A stretch of 10,947 nucleotides of DNA from Dehalococcoidia bacterium (GTDB taxonomy: Bacteria > Chloroflexota > Dehalococcoidia > Dehalococcoidales > RBG-16-60-22): the NCBI GenBank assembly GCA_013202615.1, contig JABMRL010000132.1, forward strand, positions 1-10,947. The letters are read 5' to 3'. How positions within the stretch are numbered: position 1 is the first letter of the stretch; every line of letters begins with the position of its first letter. Positions 1,396 through 9,816 of the stretch are shown here, in pieces. A model generated the notes under the pieces. It was not told where the DNA came from. It saw only the letters and a program-made list of their open reading frames with translations, and ran no database searches. The position numbers and the translations under genes are program-made.

Positions 1396-1429
1396 ATTAC
1401 TTGACTGTAACGATTATGGAGGCAAATGG

Positions 1430-2479
1430 ATGGGCGATGAGATGAGACCACGCCTCACCGAGACCGTTCACGGGGCGGGCTGAGCTTGCAAAATAGGTCC
1501 GGGAGACCTGAAGAAAGCATTAGCCGGCCTTTCTTTTATCTCTCATCCCAACCTGATAGCAGGCATGGAGAGAGCTGAAGACGCTGGCGTCTATAAACTT
1601 ACCGACGACCTGGCGGTCATCCAGACGCTGGACTTTTTCACGCCTATTGTGGATGACCCGTATTCGTTCGGGCAGGTGGCGGCGGCCAATGCGCTGAGCG
1701 ATGTCTATGCCATGGGCGGCCGACCGCTCACCGCGATGAACATCGTCTGTTTCCCCATAAAGACCATGGACATCTCGGTGCTACAAGATATACTGCGCGG
1801 TGGTCTGGACAAAGTGCACGAGGCGGGCACCATTGTGGTGGGCGGGCACACCGTGGAGGATGACGAGTTGAAGTACGGCCTTTCCGTCAGCGGGCTCGTT
1901 CACCCCCAAAAAGTGGTCCTCAATACTGGCGCCAAGGTCGGCGACAGGTTGATTCTCACCAAACCGCTGGGCACAGGCATTATCAGCACCGCCGTAAAAG
2001 GCGGCGTGGCGTCTGCCAGTGCGGAAGCCAGCATCGTGAAAAGCATGACCACGCTCAACCAGAAGGCCGCCGAACTCATGCAGGAGGCAGGCATTCACGC
2101 CGGCACAGACGTAACCGGTTTTGGCCTTCTCGGTCACGCCAGCGAGATGATAGAAGGAAGCGAGGTTGGCATGGTCATCCATTCGGCAGCAGTGCCTTTT
2201 TTCCCTGAAGCCAGAGAGTACGCCGAATTGGGCATGATTCCCGGCGGGCTGCACCGCAACCGCGATTTCCGCTCCGGGATGGTCGCCATTGAGAAGACCG
2301 TGCCGGAATATCTGGCCGATATCCTCTTTGACCCCCAGACATCCGGAGGGCTGTTTATATCCGTTGCCCCCGAAAAAGCCGAGCCCCTGCTGGAAAAAAT
2401 GCACCGGGAAGGTATTGATAAAGCCGCCATCGTCGGCGAAGTCGTTGCGACGCCAAAAGGGAAAATAATAGTCGATTAA
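1430..2479 (+). CDS. selD: Selenophosphate synthase SelD, itself a selenoprotein (UGA = Sec at residue 18)
   Basis: Makes selenophosphate from selenide and ATP, the selenium donor for selenocysteine and selenouridine synthesis. The full frame gives 349 residues, the usual family length. Residues 14-25 read HGAG-U-ACKIGPGD, matching the family's GAGCGCK active-site loop: the catalytic Cys is replaced by UGA at 1481-1483 (Sec18), with the essential Lys at 21. Downstream family motifs are present, including TLDFFTPIVDDPYSFGQVAA, DVYAMGG, VGGHTVEDDE, TDVTGFGLLGH and FDPQTSGGL. The start at 1430 is preferred because GGAGG (1418-1422) lies seven bases upstream; no other stop interrupts the frame. 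A conventional ORF begins at 1565 and would miss the active site. SelD enzymes with Sec at this position are known; translation here requires SelA, SelB and tRNA-Sec encoded elsewhere. Confidence 0.95.
1481..1483 (+). other. In-frame UGA selenocysteine codon of selD
   Basis: TGA at the exact position of the catalytic Cys of SelD. The frame is conserved on both sides: VHGAG before it and ACKIGPGDLKKAL after it. This rules out a random stop and makes a sequencing error unlikely, since a single TGC-to-TGA change at the active site would be required. Confidence 0.92.
1484..1518 (+). promoter_or_regulatory. Candidate bacterial SECIS hairpin of selD
   Basis: Immediately after the UGA, AGGTC (1495-1499) pairs perfectly with GACCT (1505-1509) around a five-base loop CGGGA. 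A lower stem GCTT (1484-1487) with AAGC (1515-1518) is separated from it by an internal loop. Position and size fit bacterial SECIS elements, where SelB binds the apical stem-loop 3' to UGA. The loop lacks the GU seen in the E. coli fdhF element, so SelB recognition is inferred from position, not from a matched consensus. Confidence 0.6.
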
Positions 2480-6446: not shown

Positions 6447-7781
6447 CTACCCGATCATCTTGCTCGGTAGCCACAGCATCAGCTGTGGAAACGCGACGAA
6501 CAAGCCAAGCGCTACCATTACCAGGACGACAAATGGAATTACCCCACGAATTATATCACCGCTGGTTACTCCCAGGTCCGGGTCGGCGCTTCCCTGGCAG
6601 ACGAATATCGCCTGGGCGAGGGGTGGGGTCATAAATGACATCTGAAGGTTAACGCAGAGCATCAGGGCAAACCACACCGGGTCAAACCCCAGCTCGGGCG
6701 CAATGGGTACCAGTATCGAGACAATGATTAGAATGATGCTCATCCAGTCGATAAACATGCCCAGGATAAATGCCGCCAGCATGATGGCGAAAAAAGCACC
6801 CCACCGTCCGAAAGGCATAGTCAGAATCAGTTCGCTAATAACCTCTTTACCACCGATGTATATAAAAACGCCCACGACCGCATTGGCACATGCCGTTATG
6901 AGCATAACAAAACCGGTAACTCGCAAAGTCTCTCGCATGGCATATTTCATCAGCTTCAGGCTAAACTTTCGGCAGACAATGGTGACCAGAAGCGTGGCGG
7001 TAGCCCCGACGCCAGCTGCCTCGTAAACGGTGGCGACGCCAAAGAATATCGTTCCCAGAACTGACATTATAATAATCAGAGGCGGAAATACCCAGCCCAG
7101 AAGCAGGGTTATCTTTCTGGCAAAGGAGATTTGTCTTTCCTCAAAGGGTGCCGGGGGGCCTATTTGCGGCTGAAGCCCGCAACGAACGACAACGTAGGTC
7201 AGATATAAACCGGAGAGGATAAAGCCAGGAATGAAGGCGCCGAAGAACAGCCTGCCTACAGATAAGCCGGCCGTCATGCCCAGGATGACCAGCATAATAC
7301 TGGGGGGAATGAGAATGCCGAGGGTTCCGCCAGCGCAAATTACGCCACAGGCCAGCTCCTTGCTGTAACCCCTCTCCAGCATTGAGCGCAGGGAAATAGT
7401 GGTCAGCATGCTCACCGAAGCCTGGACAACCGCCAGGCCGGCCGCGATAATCGTGCCCAGTATCAGGGTACTCAGCGCCAATCCCCCCCTCAGTCTTCCC
7501 AGCCACAGGTGCAAAGCACCATAGAGATTCTCGGCAAGCGTCGAATGCGCGAGCAGGACTCCCATGAAAGTGAAGAGCGGAATGGCCAGCATATTGTGAT
7601 TCATTATTATGTGATAGATACGACTGTACATCAGCCAGAATACTGGTGGCCCAATAACTAAATAGCCGATGATAGTGGCTACACCGATTAAAACCAGGGC
7701 GATGTGAAAGCCGCTCAGGATACCGGCAAGTACCGCCACCAGGAATACCAGCGCTATGATTTCGGGGCTTATCTCGATCAC
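6447..7781 (-). CDS. dctM: TRAP transporter large membrane subunit (DctM)
   Basis: 444-residue membrane protein of the TRAP transporter DctM family, the ion-coupled permease that imports organic anions or similar solutes. Almost the whole chain is hydrophobic, with about 11-12 predicted helices. Recognisable segments are IPLFTFMGVLLAHS, AGGTLGILIPPSIMLVILG (the characteristic GxLGxLIPPS motif), FGAFIPGFIL and FIDWMSIILIIVSILVPI. The length matches the family. The start is GTG at 7779-7781, overlapping the dctQ stop as GTGA, so the two are translationally coupled. No periplasmic binding protein (dctP) gene follows or precedes it in this window. The substrate cannot be inferred without dctP. 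The gene is convergent with the DUF72 unit, and its stop lies in a weak hairpin (GCTACCCGA with TCGGTAGC). Confidence 0.95.
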   Translation of the reverse strand: MIEISPEIIALVFLVAVLAGILSGFHIALVLIGVATIIGYLVIGPPVFWLMYSRIYHIIMNHNMLAIPLFTFMGVLLAHSTLAENLYGALHLWLGRLRGGLALSTLILGTIIAAGLAVVQASVSMLTTISLRSMLERGYSKELACGVICAGGTLGILIPPSIMLVILGMTAGLSVGRLFFGAFIPGFILSGLYLTYVVVRCGLQPQIGPPAPFEERQISFARKITLLLGWVFPPLIIIMSVLGTIFFGVATVYEAAGVGATATLLVTIVCRKFSLKLMKYAMRETLRVTGFVMLITACANAVVGVFIYIGGKEVISELILTMPFGRWGAFFAIMLAAFILGMFIDWMSIILIIVSILVPIAPELGFDPVWFALMLCVNLQMSFMTPPLAQAIFVCQGSADPDLGVTSGDIIRGVIPFVVLVMVALGLFVAFPQLMLWLPSKMIG

Positions 7782-8293
7782 AGCGCCTTGCCCCTGGCCA
7801 GAAGGTATACGTCACGGGTGAACCGGGCCCCGAATTGAAGGAAGAAAAGGCTCAATCCAAGCAGAATCAATGTTTTATGCAGCAAGGGGAGTGGTACTGC
7901 CCCACTATAACCTATGTCTACAAATTTACCACCGAGCAAGGCGCCCCACATTGCTCCGCCCGCCAGCACAATCAAAGCGCCAAATAAAGGGAAAAAGAAT
8001 AACGTGGCGCCGGTAATATTAACCAGCGCCTGTTTACGCGGCGAGAGGCGGGTATAGATGAAATCTACTCTGATATGCGAGTCAAGCAGTTGAGCATAGG
8101 CCCAACCCAGGACTACAATGGCACTGCCCAACATGCGGAGGGAACCGAACGCCCATTGTGTTGGCGAGTTAAACACATATCGGGAGACAACTTCATACAG
8201 GATGACCACAATCAGAACGGCGACAAGCCAATTGGATATAGATGCTGCCCGTTCGTTCAGCGTGTCAATGGCACGCAATATCCTCTTTATCAT
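7778..8293 (-). CDS. dctQ: TRAP transporter small membrane subunit (DctQ)
   Basis: 171-residue four-helix protein of the DctQ family, the small subunit that pairs with DctM. Helices lie at about 20-40, 50-70, 90-115 and 135-158. SHIRVDFIY (about 73-81) and the SRYVFNSPTQWAFG segment after helix 1 match the family signature. It is the first gene of the minus-strand pair; dctP, which normally precedes or follows, is absent. No good ribosome site lies before the ATG at 8291-8293, so translation may be weak or the true start may lie slightly downstream. A TATAAT on the minus strand (8367-8372) about 75 bp upstream is a possible -10. Confidence 0.93.
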   Translation of the reverse strand: MIKRILRAIDTLNERAASISNWLVAVLIVVILYEVVSRYVFNSPTQWAFGSLRMLGSAIVVLGWAYAQLLDSHIRVDFIYTRLSPRKQALVNITGATLFFFPLFGALIVLAGGAMWGALLGGKFVDIGYSGAVPLPLLHKTLILLGLSLFFLQFGARFTRDVYLLARGKAL

Positions 8294-8366
8294 TACAACT
8301 TAAACTTTGCTAAGGGTTGCCGGTGTGCAGACGGAGATTTACCGGCTGTCTCCAGCACTAAAGTAT

Positions 8367-8374
8367 ATTATAAT
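8367..8374. promoter_or_regulatory. Overlapping -10-like boxes facing both ways
   Basis: ATTATAAT contains TATAAT on the plus strand (8369-8374) and TATAAT on the minus strand (8367-8372). It sits between dctQ and the truncated B12-domain gene. Neither direction has a convincing -35 at the right spacing, so use as a dctQ promoter is only possible. Confidence 0.3.
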
Positions 8375-8395
8375 CGGTGCTCGGAGTGCAAAGTA

Positions 8396-8611
8396 ATCCG
8401 CGCCAGCGCTCATCTGCACCTGTTCTCCGAGGTAGTTCAGCAGCTGAAAGAAAAAGGGGCTGGCGATATCACCGTTATTGGGGGTGGCATCATCCCTGAA
8501 GAGGATATCCCTGCGCTCAAGGAAGCTGGTATCAGGGAGATATTTCTACCCGGTGCATCTCTGGATGGAATACTGGACTGGACCAGAGAGAACATAAAGC
8601 CGGTAAGATAG
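8396..8611 (+). pseudogene. C-terminal remnant of a cobalamin-binding domain (methylmalonyl-CoA mutase type)
   Basis: From about 8402 the frame reads SAHLHLFSEVVQQLKEKG, then DITVIGGGIIPEEDIPALKE, GIREIFLPGAS and DWTRENIK, ending at TAG 8609-8611. This is the last half of the B12-binding domain of methylmalonyl-CoA mutase small/C-terminal subunits and relatives. The part with the cobalamin-ligand motif DxHxxG is missing: upstream of about 8396 the frame contains only unrelated sequence, antisense to dctQ. There is no in-frame ATG, GTG or TTG near the homology start. About 70 residues cannot form a full domain, so this is read as a 5'-truncated gene. GGAG at 8383-8386 upstream is probably chance. 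The homology break marks a likely rearrangement point. Confidence 0.7.
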
Positions 8612-8811: not shown

Positions 8812-9816
8812 ATGATACTCCAATTCTTCCTTGTATTTAAGGATTATCTAATTGAATTATTACCTTTTCTGGCAGCGGGCTTCTTCCTGAGTGGATTAAT
8901 CCACGAATTTATCCCTACCGGCTGGGTGGAGAGGCACCTCGGGGGGAAAGGAATCAAACCGCTCCTATACTCCACTCTTGTCGGAACAGCTCTTCCCGTC
9001 TGCTGTCTTGGCTCCCTACCAGTGGCGGTAAGCCTTCATCAAAAAGGCGCCAGATTGGGGCCGGTTTTAGCATTTCTAGTAGCAACACCAGCCACCTCCG
9101 TAACCGCCCTCCTGGTCTGTTACGGTCTGCTGGGTATCAAGTTCACTGCCTTCATATTCTTTGCCGTGATAGTGATGGGCCTGGTCATGGGGCTTGTCGG
9201 GAACCTGATAAAGGTACAACCCGGAGCTTCTGCGTCTCAGGATGAACAACTGGCCACAGACCCGATTTGCGGAATGAACGTAGAAATAGGGAAGGCGGTT
9301 AAAACAGAGTATAAGGGGGAGATTTACTATTTCTGTTGCTCCCATTGCCAGCAGGCATTTGAAAGTCGACCCGAGGAATATTCGAGAGGCAATTCCAAAA
9401 ATATTGCTCACAGGCTGAAGCACGTCTTGAAATACTCCTTTGTGGACATGGTTAAGGAGATAGGCCCTGAGCTGCTCTTAGGATTGGCCCTGGCCGCACT
9501 GGTAGTGACGATTACCCCGGTTGGGAAATTTGTCGGGGATTATTTTGGCAGCGGCCTAGGCTATCTCTTCAGCCTTGGTTTTGGTCTTGTCATGTATATT
9601 TGCTCCACAGCCAGTGTGCCATTGGTGCATGCTTTCATATCGCAGGGGATGAACATCGGCGCCGGGATGGTACTGTTGATAGCAGGGCCAGTTACCAGCC
9701 TGGGGACTATCCTGGTGTTAAGAAAGGAGTTCGGCGGCCGGACTCTGCTCATCTATCTGGCTGTCATCAGCGTACTAGCTCTGGCTTCAGGCTATGGCTT
9801 CTCCCTAACAGGATAG
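8812..9816 (+). CDS. SO_0444/ArsP-type metal permease with inserted YHS domain
   Basis: 334-residue inner-membrane permease of the DUF318/ArsP (SO_0444-like) superfamily, linked to export of metals or organoarsenicals. First half: helices within 1-30 and 82-133 flanking LPVCCLGSLPVAVSLHQKGA (61-80), with a Cys pair (C64, C65) at the family's conserved Cys position. A YHS domain follows (about 148-192): TDPICGMNV, then YYFCCSHCQQAF with C153, C175, C176 and C179, a metal-binding module common in copper and heavy-metal proteins. Second half: VMYICSTASVPLVHAFISQG (260-279, C264) and AGPVTSLGTI (291-300), the repeat-related motif. The ATG at 8812 has GGAG ten bases upstream. It stands alone, with no adjacent regulator gene; a palindrome upstream could be an operator. 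Direction and substrate (Cu, Zn, As) are inferred from the family. Confidence 0.88.
   Translation: MILQFFLVFKDYLIELLPFLAAGFFLSGLIHEFIPTGWVERHLGGKGIKPLLYSTLVGTALPVCCLGSLPVAVSLHQKGARLGPVLAFLVATPATSVTALLVCYGLLGIKFTAFIFFAVIVMGLVMGLVGNLIKVQPGASASQDEQLATDPICGMNVEIGKAVKTEYKGEIYYFCCSHCQQAFESRPEEYSRGNSKNIAHRLKHVLKYSFVDMVKEIGPELLLGLALAALVVTITPVGKFVGDYFGSGLGYLFSLGFGLVMYICSTASVPLVHAFISQGMNIGAGMVLLIAGPVTSLGTILVLRKEFGGRTLLIYLAVISVLALASGYGFSLTG

Follow-up and report, generated by a model that had tools for sequence, protein, structure and literature searches.

The closest described counterparts of the gene analyzed here are the bacterial selenophosphate synthetases (SelD) that themselves contain selenocysteine (Sec). 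In the survey by Zhang et al. (2006; PMC1794560), FdhA and SelD are given as the most widespread bacterial selenoproteins, and every organism with selenoproteins has one or both of them; Sec-containing SelD accounts for 38 of the 285 bacterial selenoproteins, and the Chloroflexi are represented by three selenoproteins from three families. The same ranking appears in Peng et al. (2016; PMC5029168), based on more than 5200 genomes. Sec-containing SelD is a long-described selenoprotein (PMC1794560, PMC5029168), and an earlier sequence-only reading of this DNA had noted that some SelD enzymes have Sec at this position.

The window, i.e. the whole stretch of 10,947 nucleotides that was analyzed, contains a selD gene that resembles these described genes in encoding the same enzyme with UGA at the Cys/Sec site, and in keeping company with SelA, SelB, tRNA-Sec and a UGA-containing formate dehydrogenase. 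Only the host lineage differs; here it is represented by the draft genome of an uncultured organism, close to Dehalococcoidia bins. The gene is thus a plain addition to a known kind and opens no new biology by itself. With regard to structures, E. coli SelD (3u0o) aligned along residues 6-348 and shares the same residues around the active-site loop, but has Cys17 where the SelD of the window has Sec18. Aquifex SelD (2yye, 2zod), natively a selenoprotein, aligned along residues 9-340 (E 1.2e-71); the crystallized chain has Cys at the site.

The selD gene and its in-frame TGA

The selD frame runs on the plus strand from an ATG at 1430-1432 to a TAA at 2477-2479 and, as read from the sequence, is interrupted only by a TGA at codon 18, giving 349 residues when this codon is read through. 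The features of the gene are as follows.

1418-1422, plus strand: GGAGG ribosome-binding site, 7 nt 5' of the ATG
1430-2479, plus strand: selD, selenide water dikinase (selenophosphate synthetase), with Sec at residue 18 (TIGR00476, 3u0o, Pfam AIRS and AIRS_C)
1481-1483, plus strand: in-frame TGA, selenocysteine codon 18, aligned with E. coli Cys17; TGA in relatives
1490-1492, plus strand: Lys21 codon of the active-site loop, aligned with E. coli Lys20
1565-2479, plus strand: 304-aa ORF obtained by calling with translation table 11, without Sec18 and Lys21

GGAGG is the ribosome-binding consensus, and Lys21 of the loop presumably has a catalytic role. The sequence-only reading had described a TGA at 1481 that splits an HGAG-x-ACK loop behind GGAGG and the ATG at 1430, with homology on both sides. 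These coordinates and the loop were confirmed: HGAG-U-ACK lies in the N-terminal loop of SelD, the Sec being followed by xxK, and the 349-residue read-through product scored 401.8 bits against TIGR00476 (cut-off 125) and contains the AIRS and AIRS_C domains of Pfam. The proposed alignment of Sec with E. coli Cys17 also held, since in 3u0o (E 3e-75) residue 18 corresponds to Cys17 and residue 21 to Lys20. We regard it as almost certain that the UGA is read through and that the product is an ordinary bacterial SelD whose catalytic position is occupied by selenocysteine.

As the same reading had warned, the mechanically called ORF from 1565 is 45 residues shorter at the N-terminus, so that U18 and K21 are lost. 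Such a call would still be named SelD, yet it would miss the catalytic loop. One could suppose that the shorter protein is the real product and that the upstream stretch is a leader, given that the 304-aa ORF still scores above the SelD cut-off (360.8 bits). However, the strong ribosome site stands before 1430, and the loop, in the form [HR]G[AS]G-U-ACK, is kept in each of the 26 SelD genes detected in the GTDB family, so that we consider a start at 1565 very improbable.

Selenocysteine machinery in the draft genome

The window is contig C78 of a draft genome that totals 1.34 Mb over 277 contigs, with a completeness of 76.6% and a contamination of 2.8%. All four sel genes are present in it. 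SelA (C102:2580-3923; 553.9 bits, cut-off 267.9) and SelB (C102:3975-5813; 337.9 bits, cut-off 242.25) adjoin each other on one contig, and tRNA-Sec was found at C94:3079-3171 with 73.6 bits (gathering score 47) and the anticodon TCA by ARAGORN. Therefore, the selenocysteine pathway is present, as the sequence-only reading had expected when it proposed a search for selA, selB and selC. Six weaker tRNA-Sec matches in the same genome were ordinary tRNAs by ARAGORN.

Conservation of the TGA among SelD relatives

Among the 31 genomes of the GTDB family, SelD-level matches were found in 26, with one TGA each; these comprise 25 single genes (that of G006 being partial) and the gene of G027, which is split over two contigs. 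The homologous codon was TGA in 25 of the 25 single genes and in G027, i.e. in 26 of 26, so that its position is not accidental, and the genes that share it extend down to 60% identity. No SelD-level match was found in the remaining family genomes searched (G001, G015, G021, G022 and G023). We also compared named relatives, taking the best 80 of 145 loci, among which bins of Dehalococcoidia and Chloroflexi have the closest SelD. After removal of L094, which stops short of the site, 76 of the 79 relatives had TGA, two had TGT and one had TGC, with neither TAA nor TAG. Seven of the 79 (L016-L020, L025 and L048) duplicate family genes over the 174 compared bases, so that the 104 stretches (25 family genes and the 79 relatives) represent 97 different sequences. 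At the level of the class, SelD scored over the cut-off in 208 of 294 genomes; in the best 150 rows listed, 142 had one in-frame TGA and eight had none, counted per gene and not per site, and one of the 142 (G169) also has a TAA.

These counts bear on the possibility that a Cys codon was turned into TGA by faulty sequencing or assembly. The TGC or TGT at the site in three of the 79 named relatives would suit such an error, but the Sec machinery is present in the genome, and an error is very unlikely because separate, independently assembled genomes of the family all share this TGA (26 of 26 genes). We consider it extremely improbable that selD has become a pseudogene through a nonsense mutation: the in-frame stop does lie close to the start, as might be expected of one, but the frame is otherwise open over 349 codons, and the same stop, always TGA, is kept in family genes as distant as 60% identity.

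The three relatives with Cys codons (L075, L077 and L080) group together among Sec rows on a SelD tree, a placement consistent with what a Sec-to-Cys change would give. This tree contains 88 rows, from 10 of the 25 family genes and the 79 named relatives, one row having been removed by a length filter. The gene of the window and its family kin form a group of 16 rows (100/99), whose neighbors are 45 Desulfobacterota-like rows (93/76 at the joint fork), and the Chloroflexota rows L021 and L046 are placed elsewhere. Because similarity to the query determined which rows entered the tree, we claim no gene transfer. Two genomes from one family of the class, G295 (L135, L136) and G123 (L137, L138), have two SelD genes each, one copy with one in-frame TGA, as counted over the whole gene, and the other with Cys in AGCAAK.

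Co-occurrence of SelD and Sec genes in the family

SelA and SelB scored over their cut-offs in 24 and 25 of the 31 family genomes, respectively, and tRNA-Sec exceeded the gathering score in 24, with 67 bits or more in 21. The tRNA-Sec matches of G021, G022 and G029 (47-51 bits) were rejected, as ARAGORN assigns them to tRNA-Ser with the anticodon TGA. In G021, which is 92% complete, there was no SelA match, no SelB over the cut-off, no SelD-level match and no true tRNA-Sec. G010 (70% complete) and G013 (55%) have a TGA-containing SelD, but neither SelA, SelB over the cut-off nor tRNA-Sec over the gathering score was found in them; these missing partners are likely due to incompleteness. In G006 and G020, tRNA-Sec was found, with no SelA and no SelB over the cut-off, and in G001, G015, G022 and G023, SelA and SelB were found with no SelD. 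All eight of these genomes are drafts, 55-85% complete. In G024 (L149, C135), G025 and G026, selA and selB are separated by about 1.2-1.3 kb, whereas they adjoin in the genome of the window; in G024 this gap holds an open frame that, by eye, resembles a purine-biosynthesis gene.

Other UGA-containing genes and the reading of TGA

The sequence-only reading had further suggested that other UGA-containing genes may be missed in this genome, and this holds for at least two. Two formate dehydrogenase-N alpha frames (matches at C270:12267-13070 and C197:5934-6650, minus strand) were found with TIGR01591, below the cut-off of that model; when read through, they scored 1186.1 and 1168.9 bits against TIGR01553 (cut-off 814.2). 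In both, the motif HCARI-U-HS has TGA at the corresponding selenocysteine site. The earlier observation is confirmed, and its interpretation is supported in essentials. The correction to the annotation is sound: under the plain bacterial code, SelD loses its catalytic residues, and two formate dehydrogenase genes in this genome are broken. Since most of the best class SelD rows listed (142 of 150) have one in-frame TGA, many draft genomes should show the same mistake.

That TGA is a sense codon, for example for Trp, throughout the genome would also account for its being read through in selD, but this has a practically negligible probability, as TGA ends two of the 10 window genes (710-1276 and 7778-8293), TGG is used in nine of the 10, in-frame TGA occurs in selD only, and the selD site aligns with Cys and not with Trp. 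A scan of the window for other TGA read-through frames, judged by eye, gave none but selD that resembled a TGA-interrupted recognized gene.

In the family, TIGR01591 matches over the cut-off amounted to 30 rows, 15 with one TGA and 15 without. At the codon that is TGA in the formate dehydrogenases of G005, G010 and G023, the formate dehydrogenase of G021 has TGC. This TGC is consistent with the lack of Sec genes found in G021, but is not decisive because stop-free formate dehydrogenases also occur in genomes with Sec genes, e.g. G003 and G017. The single FlpD match of the genome of the window has no in-frame TGA. FlpD with one in-frame TGA was seen in the relatives G003, G006, G016, G022, G024 and G025.

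A putative SECIS hairpin after the TGA

Two predicted RNA structures lie at the TGA.

1473-1530, plus strand: larger predicted hairpin containing the TGA, from fold energy and outer-stem pair counts
1494-1510, plus strand: putative SECIS apical hairpin, stem UAGGUC/GACCUG, loop CGGGA

The apical hairpin has 6 bp and begins 10 nt 3' of the TGA. In the 25 family genes, the third bases of its stem codons are nearly fixed (G23 GGT in 23, P24 CCG in 24 and D26 GAC in 25), and the loop codon G25 uses all four third bases. The mean codon entropy of codons 19-27 was 0.91, against 1.25 expected from the same amino acids elsewhere; this constraint is suggestive only, because codons 176-181 of selD are more constrained still. 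The stretch 1472-1540 folds at -28.4 kcal/mol (z -3.09), whereas three further stretches in this region gave z-values of -0.86, -1.33 and 0.15; the 50 nt counted from the TGA are no more stable than shuffled sequences (z 0.15). In the two formate dehydrogenase genes of this genome, the sequence 3' of the TGA showed no notable fold (z -0.30 and -0.55).

We then aligned the region in 43 of the 104 stretches (selected plus-strand loci and the window), 41 of them distinct. In these 41 sequences, 89.0% of the cells of the apical helix are paired, and the outer stem of 1473-1530 is paired in 70.7% of cells in relatives. At three of the six positions of the apical helix, pairs fail in 15, 9 and 3 of the 41 rows; no compensatory double change was found in it among these sequences, and RNAalifold proposed a different consensus fold. 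Taken together, the hairpin at 1494-1510 is likely to be a SECIS element, a prediction from sequence that is unproven by covariation. Its location just after the UGA fits SECIS elements as described by Zhang et al. (PMC1794560).

Within the alignment, the hairpin sequence GGUCCGGNNGACC hardly changes from the Chloroflexota rows to most of the Desulfobacterota-like ones. One could speculate that GGUCCGGNNGACC is a selD-specific SECIS kept across phyla, by which SelD output would be tuned to the selenium supply through the product of the enzyme. We consider this unlikely, and a protein-level constraint on the GPGDL residues together with gene transfer would explain much of the conservation.

Proposed working of the gene

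By analogy with the families to which these genes belong, selD would work as follows. Ribosomes would start at 1430; at the UGA, SelB, probably with the hairpin immediately 3' of this codon as its guide, would deliver Sec-tRNA(Sec), and translation would continue to 2479. The product would then convert selenide and ATP into selenophosphate, which SelA would use to turn Ser-tRNA(Sec) into Sec-tRNA(Sec), both for SelD itself and for the formate dehydrogenases.

Other features of the window

Several minor features were observed elsewhere in the window. By eye, the stretch 8389-8611 resembles a B12-binding mutase domain of which only the tail is present, with no remainder of the gene, and the ORF at 8075-8608 had no Pfam match. 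A stand-alone DNA ligase D 3'-phosphoesterase domain protein is encoded at 17-625 on the minus strand (LigD_N, 134.9 bits), and 8812-9816 encodes an ArsP_1-type permease with an inserted YHS domain.
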